Source: Rhodopirellula baltica SH 1
GTDB lineage: Bacteria; Planctomycetota; Planctomycetia; Pirellulales; Pirellulaceae
NCBI RefSeq assembly: GCF_000196115.1
Contig: NC_005027.1
Location: forward strand, 3,596,001 to 3,660,000
Length of the DNA: 64,000 nucleotides
Direction of reading: 5' to 3'
Below, piece by piece: positions 30,270 to 38,153 of this stretch (its first letter is position 1; every line of letters begins with the position of its first letter). A program made the position numbers and the translations under genes. Below the pieces are notes generated by a model. That model did not search any database. It was not told the origin of the DNA and worked only from the letters and a program-made list of their open reading frames with translations.

Positions 30270-30854
30270 CAAGGTCTCCTCGACACCCGAAACAACATCA
30301 ACACGGTTGGGTGAATGAGACCAAGCACCGGCGGTGCCATTCGCCTGTTGAGGCAACGCATAAATCATAGCAAACCGTTGTCGCATAGAGGTTTAGGCGG
30401 ATTAACCGCCCGCGGGGTGGATAAGCTTGCGACGTGACGTGTGGGTTCAAGACATCACCAATGTTGCGTTCCCGCAACGTTCGATGAAAAACCACCACAC
30501 GCCTCAACTTCGTGATTATTTGATGCACGACGTTCCCCCGCCTCGCATATAAAAACGTAGGTCACGTCTGAGTGATGTCGCACAAGATTCGCAATTCGTT
30601 GTCATCATTTTGGCCCAACGGTGGATCAACCCAGCTGGTCCGTGGGGACAACGCTCCACCCAACCAGCAACAGCAAACCCTCCTTGAGCTGCATCAGTGA
30701 ATCAGGGTGCCCCACCGTCCGCTACAACGATCCCCACCCACCGTTTAAACTCGCTCGTCGCGTCAAAGCAAAAGTGCTCAATCGCGAATGCGGTCCATAC
30801 AATGGGACGCAACTCGACGACGTGAAGTTCCGTGGAGCCCTCGAATGCGACTGG
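30270..30854. other. Divergent rpoD-glnE intergenic region
   Basis: Roughly 585 bases if both chosen starts are right. It should contain the promoters of rpoD (left) and glnE (right). An open frame runs from 30621 into glnE, but its translation up to 30854 is low-quality and probably not coding. No RNA gene or repeat stands out. Confidence 0.4.
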
Positions 30855-33800
30855 ATGGATTGGATGAGTGACTGGGCCGACTACTCGCCGTTAAGCCCCG
30901 AACATGTCGCCGATCCGTCTCGTGTTGCCAAATCATTGGCCGCGATCGCCGACAGCGGGGTCTCCGAAGACCTGCTGCAATTGTTGTGGTCCGGTTTGGT
31001 CGAGCACCTGCACCTGACCGACGATCCTGACGAATCGATCGATCGATTGAGTCAATTCATCGGCGTCTCTCGCAGTCCAATGGCGTTGCTTGCGTTGTTC
31101 GAACGCGACCCAATGATGCTGCCGGCGTTGCTGCAAGTTTTGAGCACCAGCCCCGCCATCGCGAAACTTTTGATCAATGACCCCGAAAGCTTCGACCTGA
31201 TCCGAGCCAGCGATGGATCGCCCGCCCAGCGTTCCGTTTTGGTCGATGAACTATCGGGCGAAATGGAGACGATCCAGACCAACCGCCGAGCCGCCTTTGC
31301 GATCCGCCGTTTCGCCAGCCGCGAAATTCTGCGGATCGCCTACGGAGAATTCGTGCGTGGATTGCCACCGGACAAAGTTCAATCGCAGATCAGCTTCGTC
31401 ACTGATGCGATCATGGAGGCCGCGTTGGCATTCGCGACAGCATCCGTTTCATCCAAAAAGCCGACTCCACAACGCATCGACGGCAGTCAGCCTCAATTTT
31501 CGGTCATCGCCCTCGGCAATTACGGCGGACAAGAAATCGGTTACGAGTCGCAATTGGACCTTCTGCTGCTGTGCGACCAAATTGACCGCAAAAATTCCAG
31601 CCACGTCGAATTTCACAAGCGAGTCGCGCAAAGCCTCGTGGAACTGCTCCAGTCCAACGGCAGTCAAGTAATCCCGTTCACCTTGAGATTTGACCATCAA
31701 CCCACCCAAAACGAGTTGGCGCTGTCGGACACTCAGCGACTGGGCGTTCAATCGACTCGCCCCCAATCCTCACTGGGAAGACAAACCAGCGTCAACTCAG
31801 GGGCGGATATCGACTTCTTCGGCATCAGCGAAGCGGCGACGCACTACGAGAGAAACGGTCGGACCTGGCAACGACTCGCGTTCGTTAAAGCGAGGCATGC
31901 GGCGGGCAACGAAGCGTTGTCCAAAGCGTTTCTCAATCGCATGGAACCTTGGGTCTACCATCACCTGCTGACCCGTAGCGAAATCGCCGACATCCGCGTG
32001 CTGCGTCGCAAACTAGAGAAGCGAGCCCTCGCGACGACGTCGACTGAAAGTACACCGATTTCCGATGTTCCGGGTGGCCGCCGCGACATTGAATTGACGA
32101 TCCAGTTTTTGCAACTGCTTCACGGAGGAGATCTTCCCGATGTTCGAGTCACGGGGACGCTCCACGCGATCACTGAACTTTCGCGTCATGGGTGTTTGAC
32201 TTCGCAAGAAGCCACGATTCTGTCGACCAACCACGCAAAACTCTGTCGTTTGGAACACTTGCTGGCGGTCCTGTTTGACCATCGCATCTCGCACTTGCCT
32301 GACGATCCCGACGTGCGAGCGCGTCTGGCTTGGCGTCTCGGTGTTCGAACGGAATCCGAGAGCGGCAAGGCCATCCATGTTAAAGGCGACGCCGAACGAT
32401 TCGCGAAAATGTTGCAGGAAACATTCGATGTGAATCGGAAAATCATCAACCACTTGATGGTCGATGAAGTGCCTCCAAGCGAGTTGCCTGAATCGAGCGA
32501 AGGGCAGGGCGACGGATCGGAAAATGACGCTGGTACTCAGCGTGATCTAGCCGTGATCACGGAATTGATTCTGGACCCCGATCCCGACATCGATGCGTTC
32601 GAGCAAACAATTGCACAATATCGATTCAGCAATGTTCCTCAAGCGATTTCGAACGTGATCGCGCTCAGCCAAGAGACAGTTTCGTTCTTGTCCCCGCGTC
32701 GTTGCCGTCACTTCTTTGCCGCGGTCGCTCCACGTGTGCTGCAAGAAATCTCGGCCTCACCCGATCCCGATTCGACACTTGCTCGTTTGGTCGCGATGAC
32801 AGATTCGATTGGTGCCAAGGCGACTTTGTGGGAACTTCTGCGAACCAACGACGCAACCTTGCAACTCACGATCTCAATGTGTTCGCTGGCACCCTATTTG
32901 ACGAACATCTTGATCGACCATCCCGGAATGATCGATGAGTTGATCGACTCGTTGGTAATGGATCGTTTGCCCACCACGGAACGTTTGGACGCTCAAACGA
33001 TTCGATTGTGCGATGGAGTCGATGAGATCGTCGACGTCCTACGTCACGTCAAAGCGAGTGCCCATCTGATGATCGGTGTTCGCGATTTGCTGGGCAAAGA
33101 ATCGATCGACGCAATCAGCCGGTCGTTGACCGACATCGCGGAAGCTTGCTTGCGGCGAGTGGTCGATCAAGAACACGAACTCCTCGCACAACGATATGGC
33201 GATCCACTTGATTCAAACGGCGAACCATCGGAACTGGTTGCGGTGGCGCTGGGCCGTTTCGCTGGCGGCGAGATGAATTACCACAGCGACCTGGATGTCA
33301 CGTTCGTGTACACGGCAGAAGGCGAGACCCAACGCCGTGTTGGTGGTCCTCGTTCCACGCTTTCCAACCGGCAATTCTTCAATCAACTCGCCGGCAACAT
33401 CCTTCGTCGAATGGATCAATCCAGTGAAGGACGTTTGTATGAAATGGACTTGCCCTTTGCCGGAGGAGCAGACGAATCTGTTTTGGCGATGTCACGAGAC
33501 CAATTTCTCAAACCATTCCGCCAAAAAACTTCGTCGCTTTGGCAATCGGTCGCTTTGTGCAAAGCGCGTCCGATCTCGGGTTCTCGCGAGGCCCGCGAAT
33601 CCATTGAACGAATGCTTCGCCGCGTGACCCGCAGCGTTAGTTGGCGAGACAGCATGAACGGCAAACTTCGTGAATGGCGTGAGAACAGTGAGTCGACCGC
33701 CGGACCAAACAATCTGAAACGCGGTGCCGGTGGATTGGTCGACATCGAACTCATCGCCGCCGTTGGTGTGCTTCGAACCGCCGACTCCGAAGATTTTCCT

Positions 33801-34106
33801 CTGCACGCCAACACAGTTCAGTGTCTCGAAGAACTCTCGCGTGCCCAGTGTTACTCGCCCGAGGACATTCAGACATTAGCTCGCAATTATCGTTATTTGC
33901 GAAGCATCGAGGGCAAACTTCGTTTGCTCAACACCGTCGCGAGACACGAATTGCCACTCGGTTTTGATGACGAAGAAGCGCCGCTGGAACTCAAGCAATT
34001 AGCAAGTTTGACTTCGGCGGACTCGCCCCAAGCTCTATTGCGCGAGTGCGAGGCGGTCCGCAAAGAAAACCGCGAGCTGTTGAATCGCCTGGTTCCAAAG
34101 TCTTAA
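30855..34106 (+). CDS. glnE: Bifunctional glutamine synthetase adenylyltransferase/removase
   Basis: Controls glutamine synthetase by adenylylation and deadenylylation. The start is uncertain: ATG at 30855 or 30864, with an open frame back to a GTG at 30621. Numbered from that GTG, the N-terminal nucleotidyltransferase (removase) motif at 297-316 reads ALGNYGGQEIGYESQLDLLL, and the C-terminal (transferase) motif reads ALGRFAGGEMNYHSDLDVTF with D890 and D892. The N-terminal motif has Gln (Q311, bases 31551-31553) where an Asp is expected, although D313 remains. Total length (about 1083-1161 aa) is a little above the E. coli enzyme. Its stop overlaps that of the convergent kinase gene. Confidence 0.92.
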   Translation: MDWMSDWADYSPLSPEHVADPSRVAKSLAAIADSGVSEDLLQLLWSGLVEHLHLTDDPDESIDRLSQFIGVSRSPMALLALFERDPMMLPALLQVLSTSPAIAKLLINDPESFDLIRASDGSPAQRSVLVDELSGEMETIQTNRRAAFAIRRFASREILRIAYGEFVRGLPPDKVQSQISFVTDAIMEAALAFATASVSSKKPTPQRIDGSQPQFSVIALGNYGGQEIGYESQLDLLLLCDQIDRKNSSHVEFHKRVAQSLVELLQSNGSQVIPFTLRFDHQPTQNELALSDTQRLGVQSTRPQSSLGRQTSVNSGADIDFFGISEAATHYERNGRTWQRLAFVKARHAAGNEALSKAFLNRMEPWVYHHLLTRSEIADIRVLRRKLEKRALATTSTESTPISDVPGGRRDIELTIQFLQLLHGGDLPDVRVTGTLHAITELSRHGCLTSQEATILSTNHAKLCRLEHLLAVLFDHRISHLPDDPDVRARLAWRLGVRTESESGKAIHVKGDAERFAKMLQETFDVNRKIINHLMVDEVPPSELPESSEGQGDGSENDAGTQRDLAVITELILDPDPDIDAFEQTIAQYRFSNVPQAISNVIALSQETVSFLSPRRCRHFFAAVAPRVLQEISASPDPDSTLARLVAMTDSIGAKATLWELLRTNDATLQLTISMCSLAPYLTNILIDHPGMIDELIDSLVMDRLPTTERLDAQTIRLCDGVDEIVDVLRHVKASAHLMIGVRDLLGKESIDAISRSLTDIAEACLRRVVDQEHELLAQRYGDPLDSNGEPSELVAVALGRFAGGEMNYHSDLDVTFVYTAEGETQRRVGGPRSTLSNRQFFNQLAGNILRRMDQSSEGRLYEMDLPFAGGADESVLAMSRDQFLKPFRQKTSSLWQSVALCKARPISGSREARESIERMLRRVTRSVSWRDSMNGKLREWRENSESTAGPNNLKRGAGGLVDIELIAAVGVLRTADSEDFPLHANTVQCLEELSRAQCYSPEDIQTLARNYRYLRSIEGKLRLLNTVARHELPLGFDDEEAPLELKQLASLTSADSPQALLRECEAVRKENRELLNRLVPKS

Positions 34107-36874
34107 AGAGTCGCTTCGATCCACTCTCGCCAATCTTGCCACTGCATTTCGTCCATGCTGGACGTTGGCAACGAAGGCAGCATCACGGTGCGTCCCAAAT
34201 CGGGACGTTCCAAGTGCACCGAAAGCAACCCGTTGATATCGAGCTCGAAGCCAAGTCGTCGCATTGGATTCACTTCGTCCGGTGCGACCTCGATCGTATG
34301 ACGTCCCAGCGTTTGCCAGTTCTCACCGTTCTTGCCGGAAGATTCCACCAACGACAACGTCATGCGGTTGTCGCGCGCGGTTCCGTTGAGTTGCCGGTTT
34401 GTCCGGGCGGGTGTGGGCGTTCCTCGAGGAATGATAGGCAGAATCCTTCGCTTCCCATCACGATCTGCGACGACGAATCCAATCGAGTGTCCAGCAACGC
34501 CCTTGGCGGGAGGCTCTGAACACAGTTGACCTGGCAATTCAGAAGCCACGCAAGCGGCAGCACCATGGGCCGCGTCGACTTGATCGTAAAACGCAATCGC
34601 CGCGTTGGGTGCTCCTTTCCTCAACACTCGATCGCGAATCGCAGGCAGTCGCAGCAACGGCCCCATCGCCAAACAGTGCTTCAAGTCCGAAGGCAAAACA
34701 CCGGCTCGCTGACAAACCAAACGAATACTTTCTTCGATAGAAAGCAGGAGATCTTCGCACTCGGTCAACCATTCGTCTCGGGTCAGTTCCACCGAATCGA
34801 TGTGCCCCTGGTGTGCGATTTCGACGCGAGTTTCAGGCATCAGCAACAATTGATTCATCGCTCGTTCGCCCGCCATTTGAATGCGGGTGACGTGAATCAG
34901 TTCTTGACGATTTGCGGGTAAACCTTGGATACGTTTGGGTGCACAAGGCAATCGCGAGGAGATCATTTCGACCAATCGTCGCGACCAAGCCATCGTGCTG
35001 TGGCACCAATGTCCCGCCGTCGCAATTTGCCGAATTTGTCCACCGTAGACTTGCAATACGGAGACATCCAATGATTGCCCCGTCAGACCCACGTACAAAA
35101 TCGGCGCGGAGGATTGCGAATCGATTGGCGGCAGGGGCGTCTCTTCAAAACTGCTGCGATGTGGACTTGTCATTGCAAATCGCGTCACCGCGATGCTTCG
35201 TTCAATCAATCGAACTGCCGGCAGACCGGCCAATTGTGCCGACTGATAGATCGCTCGACGATGCAGTTGGTCGTAACTTGACGGGACAGTGATCGCGACC
35301 GCATCGGGCCACCGTTCATGTCGCTTCCAACTCGTTCCCAGCGCCATCGGCGACGATGAATCCCCATCGGGTGACCCCGGAGAATTCACTTGGGTCAATG
35401 TGTTGCCCAGCAAATGCCGCATGCACAATCCCATCGTGACCTCGGGCGGGCACATTCGCCCACCGATCCGACGCATCATGTCGTCCCGGCCGAAGTACAT
35501 CATTTGACAATGTGCCACCCGCTGCGGGTGACGCTCACGACGTTCATAGGCACTGTCGCCAAACAGGATGGTCGATTGCCCGGTATCTCGATCGGTCTTT
35601 TCGGCAACAGCAATTCGGCACAATGGGCGAGGCCCTTGAGCCGACATTCCCGGCCAACCCGCGAGCATGTTGCCATCGGACTGAGTGATTGCGGTCGCGG
35701 CGTGGGTCATGCCAAGTTCAATGCCAATGACACTGAGTAATCCGCGTCGCGTGGACTCCCCGCCCACCGTTGTGTGGTCTTCGCCGGTTTCGCGGCGAGC
35801 AAAGTCGAGCACCCAGGCGGGAGTCGAACGGTCGTTGTCGTATGGAGCCATCGCGCGGGCGACCTCGTCCATCGACCCATATCGCTCGGCGGGATCTTTC
35901 GCCAGCATTCGTCGTACGATGTCGGCCAGTTTTAAGTCGACGTCGTTTCGAAGCGTCATCAGGTCAGGTACTTCGCCATGCCGGTGACCATACAGCTGTT
36001 CGACCAAGTCACCGGTAAACGGAGGGTGCCCCATCAGCAGGTAAAACAGCGTCGCGCCCAGCGAGTATTGATCGCTTCGCGAATCGGCCGAGTTGGCGTC
36101 TTCGAGCTGTTCGGGTGAGATGAACGACAACGTCCCAAGTAGCGGCCGGTTTTTAGCTTCGGTTGATGCCGAGTTGAGCGAATCTTCTTCGTCTGGCAAA
36201 TCCATCTCCCGAGGCTTCAAACCACGAGGTGACGGATACCATTCGGCGGAGAAACGGGCCAACCCGAGATCTAACAACTTGATCGTTCCGTCGTGGGCTC
36301 GCATCAAGTTACCGGGTTTGACATCGCGGTGGACGATGCCCGCCGCGTGCGCGTGGTGCAATGCAAATGCTGCTTGGCGGATTGCCGAGGCTGCATCACC
36401 AATCGACATCGGGCCTTGATCATTGACCCATTGCGACAGAGTTCGCCCGTCAACGTATTCCATCGCCATGTAGTGGATGCCGTCCGCTTCGCCGGCATCA
36501 AAGGCTGTGACGATGTTCGGATGCATCAAACTCGAGGCCGCACGAACCTCTTCGTAGAATCGATTGACCGACTCCACTCGATCGAGCCAACGTGTTGGCA
36601 GGATTTTCAGCGCAACCTTTCGTCCCATCGATCGGTGCTCCGCGAGGAACACTTCGCCCATGCCTCCTCGACCGATCGGGCGTCCAACTTTGTAGACACC
36701 CACAATCTCGGGGATAGACCGATGGAAGCTTTCGACTTCAAATCCAACCTCAGAATGAGTTTGGTCACGCGTTAATTCGCCCATTGAATCCGCATGCGAC
36801 GCATCCAATCGATCAGCCCACGAACTCGCATCGTCACTACCGGGCTCTTTCGAGTTATCGGAGAGACGTCGCAT
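34103..36874 (-). CDS. Ser/Thr protein kinase fused to Hsp70-like domain
   Basis: Numbered from the far end of the open frame (TTG at 37003), a Hanks-type kinase occupies about 100-385: IGRGGMGEVF loop, VALKIL Lys, HRDVKPGN catalytic loop, DLG metal motif and SPEQ in place of APE, all intact. From about 424 to the end is an Hsp70-like module: VIGIELGMTHAATAI (phosphate-1-like), GDSAYERRERHPQRV, AVAITVPSSYDQLHRRA, ILYVGLTGQSLDVSVL (phosphate-2-like), QVDAAHGAAACVA, then PIIPRGTPTPARTNRQL and NGLLSVH like the DnaK substrate-binding domain. The nucleotide motifs are degraded (GLTGQSLD for DLGGGTFD, MGPLLRLP for VGGSTRIP). No transmembrane helix. I prefer the ATG at 36874. The stop overlaps glnE's stop at TTAA. 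Confidence 0.88.
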   Translation of the reverse strand: MRRLSDNSKEPGSDDASSWADRLDASHADSMGELTRDQTHSEVGFEVESFHRSIPEIVGVYKVGRPIGRGGMGEVFLAEHRSMGRKVALKILPTRWLDRVESVNRFYEEVRAASSLMHPNIVTAFDAGEADGIHYMAMEYVDGRTLSQWVNDQGPMSIGDAASAIRQAAFALHHAHAAGIVHRDVKPGNLMRAHDGTIKLLDLGLARFSAEWYPSPRGLKPREMDLPDEEDSLNSASTEAKNRPLLGTLSFISPEQLEDANSADSRSDQYSLGATLFYLLMGHPPFTGDLVEQLYGHRHGEVPDLMTLRNDVDLKLADIVRRMLAKDPAERYGSMDEVARAMAPYDNDRSTPAWVLDFARRETGEDHTTVGGESTRRGLLSVIGIELGMTHAATAITQSDGNMLAGWPGMSAQGPRPLCRIAVAEKTDRDTGQSTILFGDSAYERRERHPQRVAHCQMMYFGRDDMMRRIGGRMCPPEVTMGLCMRHLLGNTLTQVNSPGSPDGDSSSPMALGTSWKRHERWPDAVAITVPSSYDQLHRRAIYQSAQLAGLPAVRLIERSIAVTRFAMTSPHRSSFEETPLPPIDSQSSAPILYVGLTGQSLDVSVLQVYGGQIRQIATAGHWCHSTMAWSRRLVEMISSRLPCAPKRIQGLPANRQELIHVTRIQMAGERAMNQLLLMPETRVEIAHQGHIDSVELTRDEWLTECEDLLLSIEESIRLVCQRAGVLPSDLKHCLAMGPLLRLPAIRDRVLRKGAPNAAIAFYDQVDAAHGAAACVASELPGQLCSEPPAKGVAGHSIGFVVADRDGKRRILPIIPRGTPTPARTNRQLNGTARDNRMTLSLVESSGKNGENWQTLGRHTIEVAPDEVNPMRRLGFELDINGLLSVHLERPDLGRTVMLPSLPTSSMDEMQWQDWREWIEATL

Positions 36875-37139
36875 GGCCTGGCCGGCGGGATCGCCGATCA
36901 GTTCCGGTTCGTCGGGAGAATTGGACAATGGCAGACGAAGAATGAGGGATAGCGAGTGCACAATGAGTGCACCCGGGACACAACCAAGACTCGTCCGGAC
37001 CAAGTCGCACTCGGTTCCGGATTTGGCACCCTCGGCCTACACTCTTCCTACTAGCGTAACGACGCAGCGGAAGATTTTCCGCCATGATTTTCGCAATTTC
37101 GGCCGTTCAGTCCACCCTTCCACCGAATAAACCGCAACC

Positions 37140-38153
37140 GTGGCCCCGACTCCCCCCTCCGACACCACCCGCCTGCGAATCGCCACCCGAGAAAGCCCCC
37201 TGGCCATGTGGCAGGCCGAACATGTCGCCAAATTGTTGAAAAAGCACGGTTTCCAGACCGAAATCGTGCCCTTGGTCAGCAAAGGCGACACCGACATGCG
37301 GCCGATCGATGGGACTCGCCAAGTCGGTTTGTTCACCAAACGGATCCAACAAGCCTTGGTTGACGATGAAGCCGACGTCGCGGTTCACTCCTTGAAAGAC
37401 TTGCCCACCGAGCCGGACAGTCGTTTCGTTTTGGCCGCCGTCCCGCCGCGAGAATCGGTGCTCGACGCTCTGGTGTTTGCCGACAACAGCCCACATTTGG
37501 AGTCCCAAACCGGCGCCGAGTCACCGCTGGACTATTTGCCGCAGGGAGCTCGAGTTGGAACGGGTAGCACTCGCCGGTTAGCTCAATTGAAGCAACTTCG
37601 TCCCGACCTGGAAGTCCTTCCTATTCGCGGAAACGTTCAAACTCGATTGGCCAAACTCAACGCCGGCGAGTTCGACGCGATTGTTTTGGCCCACGCTGGG
37701 ATCTTGCGTTTGGAAATGACCGATCTGCCGCATCGTTTATTTCCTCTCGATGAGATGATTCCCGCCCCCGGCCAAGGTGCCTTGGGAATCGAAGTTCGAA
37801 GCGACGACGCCGGAGCCATGGATGCGATCGCAAACCTAAACGATGCGGCAGCTCGATTGGCTGCGACGGCGGAGCGAAAGGTGCTATCGGAACTTCACGG
37901 CGGATGCTTGGCTCCGATCGCTTGCCATGCCAAATTGGAAACATCTAACCACGGCACCGAGCTATGTCTGCGGGCAATCGTGATGTCAGCCGATGGCGAA
38001 CAACGGTTGCAGGAAGACGCTCGCATCACTGTCCAGCCGAACGACGCTGACTTGCACGTTGCCGAAGCTCACGAGTTGGGAACACTCGTTGCCAAACGTT
38101 TGCGAGACAAAGGTGCAGACAAACTGATCAGCACCGTTCGTGAAAATCACTGA
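37140..38153 (+). CDS. hemC: Hydroxymethylbilane synthase (porphobilinogen deaminase)
   Basis: Polymerises four porphobilinogens into hydroxymethylbilane for haem synthesis. The start is a GTG at 37140, giving 337 aa. N-terminal [48 protein letters not shown] and [15 protein letters not shown] are diagnostic. The dipyrromethane cofactor Cys is in [12 protein letters not shown]. It is followed after 57 bases by hemL, a probable operon. Confidence 0.96.

Follow-up and report, generated by a model that had tools for sequence, protein, structure and literature searches.

Pseudokinases are well known. The reverse case, in which a kinase that looks alive is fused to a pseudo-Hsp70, raises the question of what such a partner does for the kinase that carries it. 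One such gene lies in a 64,000-nucleotide stretch of Rhodopirellula baltica SH 1 (hereafter the window; bases 3,596,001–3,660,000 of a genome that is a single contig of 7,145,576 bases). The initial annotation described the gene as a Ser/Thr kinase joined to an Hsp70-like ATPase and substrate-binding region, and both halves were recovered by profile searches, the second within residues 424–935, where the annotation had placed it: Pfam Pkinase (PF00069) matches residues 104–378 (E = 4e-44, 151.4 bits, cut-off 31.7) and HSP70 (PF00012) matches residues 569–931 (E = 3.6e-16, 59 bits, cut-off 20.6). The gene runs on the minus strand (37003..34103), which had not been stated. Its start codon is ambiguous, with a first TTG at 37003 and further in-frame starts downstream. 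The protein is probably cytosolic. The nearest named relative found is Rhodopirellula europaea 6C (97% identity across 547 residues). Its parts, including the Hsp70 nucleotide-binding domain (NBD) and the β-subdomain of the substrate-binding domain (SBDβ), are as follows:

34103..37003, minus strand: whole gene, Hanks kinase–pseudo-Hsp70 fusion, a 966-residue open frame counted from the first TTG.
35870..36694, minus strand: Hanks Ser/Thr kinase domain, residues 104–378 (PF00069), catalytic residues present.
35735..35869, minus strand: kinase–NBD linker, residues 379–423, with a constraint close to that of SBDβ in nine genus pairs.
35750..35755, minus strand: Ser417-Thr418 dyad just before the NBD, a candidate autophosphorylation site suggested by the sequence.
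34529..35734, minus strand: degenerate Hsp70 NBD, approximately residues 424–825, placed by profile matches.
35501..35503, minus strand: Met501, aligned in place of the DnaK catalytic Lys70.
35198..35200, minus strand: Arg602, aligned in place of the DnaK catalytic Glu171.
35066..35089, minus strand: GLTGQSLD, an eroded form of the phosphate-2 motif, which reads DLGGGTFD in relatives with an intact Hsp70.
34169..34492, minus strand: SBDβ, approximately residues 838–945, placed by profile and alignment.

The Hsp70 part extends over approximately residues 424–966 and comprises an NBD and an SBDβ; its start near residue 424 is marked by GIELGMTHAA, which replaces GIDLGTTNS, the phosphate-1 motif. 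A profile built from 32 relatives (profile A2) matches residues 2–483 of the solved DnaK structure 2v7y through positions 15–509 of its 521 (E = 2.3e-57), and therefore both NBD and SBDβ are present. In the 645-residue DnaK of the host, the C terminus corresponds to position 527; the helical lid is therefore absent, as first proposed.

Positions in this part are numbered, and roles assigned to residues such as K70, E171, D194 and T199, as in Escherichia coli DnaK. We call a kinase joined to an Hsp70 that has lost its ATPase residues a pseudo fusion, and refer to the host's family, Pirellulaceae, as the family. We compared 90 pseudo copies (another, L219, was omitted) with 16 intact fusions and with 15 of the inspected lidless Hsp70s that stand alone. 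Lys at the K70 position, Glu at E171 and Asp at D194 are each found in 0/90 pseudo copies, 16/16 intact fusions and 15/15 stand-alone forms; the corresponding counts for Thr at T199 are 3/90, 16/16 and 15/15. The window protein has M, R, G and S at these four positions, and the eroded motifs first pointed out in it, GLTGQSLD and MGPLLRLP, are both present in the translation. The replacements are regular: the E171 position is Arg in 61 and Lys in 29 of the 90 pseudo copies, and the F146 position is Tyr in all of them. Positions that couple the domains of DnaK are kept (P143 in 88/90, Arg at R151 in 90/90). Judged by the residues at these positions, the whole pseudo clade combines a dead Hsp70 ATPase with an intact kinase, a finding that is new here; the earlier picture of an active-looking kinase with a pseudo-chaperone is thereby well supported, and as a trait of the whole clade.

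Three features of a functional Hsp70 chaperone, namely the ATPase residues, the hydrophobic VLLLD linker and the helical lid, are missing from the window protein. Many lidless Hsp70s in the class stand alone and keep their ATPase motifs, with DLGGGTFD in 22/22 kinase-free Hsp70 frames inspected, so the absence of the lid and the loss of the ATPase are separate matters. Some of these stand-alone forms (L158–L176) carry N- or C-terminal extensions and reach 1375 residues. The host genome also holds two further, nearby Hsp70-like genes (G000:C1:3004902-3007617; L004 and L006), with frames of 657 and 990 residues and partial PF00012 matches.

The kinase had been described as keeping all of its catalytic residues, and this holds across the clade. 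Among 51 kinase rows (47 pseudo copies including the window, three intact family fusions and L120, a fusion from another class), the VAIK Lys and the αC Glu are kept in 50, the remaining row being truncated, and the HRD Asp, the Asn and the DFG Asp in all 51. In 44 further pseudo copies, HRD and DFG motifs are present in 44/44 and a VAIK-type Lys in 39, the other five being cut by contig ends. Three proteins of 1159–1251 residues (L107, L108 and L125, from G333, G343 and G380) carry an extra N-terminal kinase before the kinase–pseudo-Hsp70 pair. This N-terminal kinase was the one used in the 51-row count; the Hsp70-adjacent kinase also has VAIK, HRD and DFG motifs, so that HRD and DFG occur in both kinases of each protein. 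In the kinase tree, the added kinases of L107 and L108 fall in another place; that of L125 was omitted as a near-copy. The best NCBIfam match of the fusion protein is NF033483 (PknB/Stk1; 251.8 bits), yet this lies under the cut-off of 450, and the PknB/Stk1 family has PASTA domains where the fusion has its Hsp70-like part; none of the seven Pfam families matched in the fusion protein is a PASTA domain. PADLOC anti-phage kinase models (PD-T4-6 and others) have their best stretches within residues 95–401, that is, the kinase and the start of the linker, for the 25 models listed, of 35.

To how many genomes does this arrangement extend? We scored seven candidates per genome in 199 family and 199 phylum genomes, five in the search for lidless Hsp70s and four in 297 class genomes, so low-ranked copies could be missed. 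In the family, profile A2 gives 91 matches in 89 genomes at 430 bits or more: 90 score at least 518 bits and one, a partial copy, 430, and the next among the matches listed scores 325. A kinase is present in 91/91 of these copies, each locus having been inspected (47 including the window, then 44); in one of them, L219, the assembly breaks the gene into two frames. Because the fusion is conserved across relatives, a sequencing error that joined two genes, which the initial annotation had allowed for, is excluded. The expectation of the same fusion across Planctomycetes was too wide: among the 297 class genomes, 15 of the 36 from the family have the dead-Hsp70 form, whereas it was found in none of the 261 others (15 copies at 541 or more; next match 310). 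A phylum search with the window's Hsp70 part as the query gave eight inspected matches outside the family (L118–L124), one of which, L120, carries a kinase. Intact fusions in the family number 16 copies in 15 genomes (L106, L111, L112, L157 and L221–L232); they came from 1/20 loci with frames of 566–1375 residues, from 12/12 loci chosen with frames of 823–1091 residues, and from three others. Within the 199 family genomes, none was found to hold both forms (0 shared of 15 with the intact and 89 with the pseudo form; hypergeometric P = 8.7e-5). Counted over 68 genera, the two forms occur in 12 and 15 with no overlap (P = 0.037). Both statistics ignore kinship and depend on this non-exhaustive sampling of intact fusions.

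Selection was examined as the ratio of non-synonymous to synonymous substitution rates (dN/dS) in nine pairs within the genus; dS approaches or exceeds 1 in most of them, so the ratios are rough. They range over 0.019–0.071 for the kinase, 0.022–0.114 for the NBD (computed for residues 424–805), 0.000–0.053 for the SBD (residues 838–940) and 0.000–0.060 for the kinase–NBD linker, which is about as low as the SBD; residues 44–103, at 0.079–0.336, are the least constrained of the five stretches tested. The SBD value lies below those of the kinase and NBD in 9/9 pairs. These ratios indicate that selection within the genus on kinase, NBD, linker and SBDβ is purifying and that the pseudo-Hsp70 is not decaying. 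In the aligned stretch of linker just before the NBD, the Ser-Thr dyad, a possible site of autophosphorylation, has its Ser in 79/90 and its Thr in 77/90 pseudo copies. A T...[ST]T pattern occurs in 69/90 pseudo copies versus 1/16 intact fusions, whose linker is also longer (median 80 versus 57 residues, where measured).

We propose, as a reading that we hold to be about evenly balanced between right and wrong, that the pseudo-Hsp70 serves as a binding module independent of ATP, which gates or targets the kinase. In such a scheme, the C-terminal pseudo-Hsp70 of this Hanks-type kinase would no longer run an ATPase cycle, and SBDβ would bind a peptide or a fixed partner free of ATP control. By way of the short linker with its Ser and Thr, binding or its loss would then move the pseudo-NBD relative to the kinase, and this movement would switch the kinase; alternatively, the module would bring the kinase to its substrate. 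The binding of clients or the sensing of misfolded protein, suggested at the outset, fits the strong constraint on SBDβ and is a candidate role.

Several observations weigh against this proposal. An AlphaFold2 model of the Hsp70 part, made from a two-row alignment (window and L066), has a mean predicted local distance difference test score of 31.8; the Hsp70 homology rests instead on profile matches. The DnaK peptide-pocket residues are partly kept in the 90 pseudo copies, a result that depends on the alignment: the V436 position is Met in 37 and Pro in 26, and the I472 position Arg in 44 and Leu in 34, so that DnaK-like peptide binding by SBDβ would not be assured. The VLLLD linker is altered, with Pro at the L390 position in 57/90 and at the L391 position in 41/90; intact fusions and stand-alone forms also depart from VLLLD, and the change is therefore no mark of the dead form. 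Finally, some nucleotide-contact positions survive: D8 is Asp or Glu in 90/90, G197 is kept in 88/90, G341 in 85/90 and R345 in 52/90, which makes the binding of ATP without hydrolysis possible.

The pseudo-Hsp70 could instead be a plain docking arm that holds one specific substrate or scaffold and senses nothing, an account that we regard as rather unlikely but worth keeping in view. In its favour, the substitution ratio of SBDβ is below those of the kinase and the NBD in every genus pair, and in a lidless, ATPase-dead module binding would be constitutive. Docking alone, however, leaves the constraint on the NBD and the Ser-Thr dyad of the linker unexplained. We judge it less probable still that the pseudo-NBD binds a nucleotide or another small ligand without hydrolysis and gates the kinase in this way. 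Such binding would draw on the surviving acidic D8, G197 and G341 positions; set against it are the reversal of E171 to Arg or Lys in every pseudo copy, the loss of D194 in all 90, the near-loss of T199 and the erosion of the adenosine motif.

It is improbable, in our assessment, that the pseudo-Hsp70 acts on a true Hsp70 (DnaK or a stand-alone lidless form) in the manner of Hsp110 or Ssz1, with the kinase phosphorylating chaperone clients or partners. Ssz1 is itself lidless and does not hydrolyse ATP, according to the part of the source consulted (PMC7083937), and some genomes hold both a pseudo fusion and a stand-alone lidless Hsp70 (for example, G204, with L097 and L175). The host, however, shows no lidless relative as close as those of many other genomes: with an intact lidless Hsp70 as the reference, the best of its five scored candidates has E = 1.9e-76, against 1e-120 to 1e-233 for the top lidless copies. 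That the Hsp70 is decaying, or the fusion an assembly product, and without function is hardly credible: the eroded motifs and the split copy L219 would suit it, but 91 copies in 89 genomes, purifying selection and regular replacements all oppose it.

How the fusion arose was approached through Hsp70 and kinase trees, drawn with midpoint roots and near-copies left out. The pseudo-Hsp70s occupy one side of a branch (support 100/100). In the kinase tree, the kinases of the 16 intact fusions group together (100/98), beside those of the pseudo fusions (100/97) and apart from 28 other host kinases; these 28 derive from 35 matches, of which 30 loci were taken, the window's own included, and L133 lacked a required motif. 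The pairing of intact- and pseudo-fusion kinases has support of 91/58 with 16 intact rows and 94/80 with four. In the simplest story, which has modest support from the kinase trees, the kinase would have been fused once, to a lidless Hsp70 still competent as an ATPase, and one branch would later have lost that activity. The Hsp70 tree conflicts with it by placing four intact fusions among stand-alone forms; forcing them to group with the pseudo forms fits worse (approximately unbiased test, p-AU 0.024), with long branches in play, and independent fusions are accordingly another possible history. L120 (6387–8906), from another planctomycete class, has HGD for HRD and intact Hsp70 motifs, and its kinase sits on a long branch apart from the others, perhaps reflecting an independent fusion.

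Within the family, the intact fusions share domain order and a lidless Hsp70 with the pseudo form, and their kinases are, with modest support, sister to its kinases; they differ in their ATPase residues and linker length. Further afield, Ssz1 of the ribosome-associated complex is a lidless Hsp70 with an SBDβ that is able to bind chains, as far as the portion of PMC7083937 consulted describes it. The likeness is one of anatomy (no lid, an SBDβ), and kinship is not implied: Ssz1 has no kinase, works with the J-protein Zuo1 at the ribosome and still binds ATP. Bacterial Hsp70s in regulatory use are known from GTPase-centred conflict systems, some linked to GTPases and GrpE (eLife 2020 e52696, PMC7159879), which differ in having separate genes and, in the sections consulted, no kinase–Hsp70 fusion. 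In the open-licence literature, covered mostly at the level of titles and abstracts, we found no description of a kinase–Hsp70 fusion in planctomycetes. None is named in the consulted parts of PMC7159879 and PMC8195603, and the main text of PMC11032199 does not contain 'Hsp70', its consulted parts naming no fusion either, although its supplementary accessory-domain tables may list the architecture. The family supplies its own controls, in kinase–Hsp70 fusions with intact ATPase residues and in stand-alone lidless Hsp70s, and these allow one to ask directly what an Hsp70 that no longer cycles ATP can contribute to signalling, and whether a kinase lets bacteria sense the state of their proteins.

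Two genes flank the fusion gene in the window:

37140..38153, plus strand: hemC, hydroxymethylbilane synthase (TIGR00212, 296 bits, cut-off 164), the divergent neighbour.
30621..34106, plus strand: glnE-like gene (best model 390.9 bits, under the cut-off of 487), convergent, with a 4-base overlap with the fusion gene.

A short divergent region (37003–37140) separates the fusion gene from hemC, an arrangement that recurs in 45 other copies. All fall in one branch of the pseudo clade, which holds 61 of the 91 copies (35 placed by the tree, 26 by best match); counting the window, hemC lies divergently upstream in 46 of the 61, was not found in 12 copies (three genera) whose available upstream sequence is 1 kb or longer, and three have no upstream sequence. 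Upstream of the other 30 pseudo copies it was found in none, five of them having less than 1 kb of upstream sequence, and it was likewise not found upstream of the intact fusions, of which L225, L227 and L231 have less than 1 kb. When neighbours were clustered over 58 loci, the hemC family appeared in 28 and the next family in nine. A common control region, or else a connection with tetrapyrrole synthesis, may lie behind the arrangement. Tentatively, and with doubt outweighing confidence, the fusion might be the bacterial equivalent, on one chain, of a stress kinase gated by a chaperone. A kinase would have been fused once to a functioning lidless Hsp70, which then lost its ATPase but retained the substrate-binding part; the outcome would be a pseudo-chaperone that acts as a sensor and switches the Ser/Thr kinase, in one lineage with a tie to tetrapyrrole synthesis through hemC. 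Of 58 loci from relatives, four have a match to the glnE-like gene in the vicinity of the fusion, and all four are close relatives.

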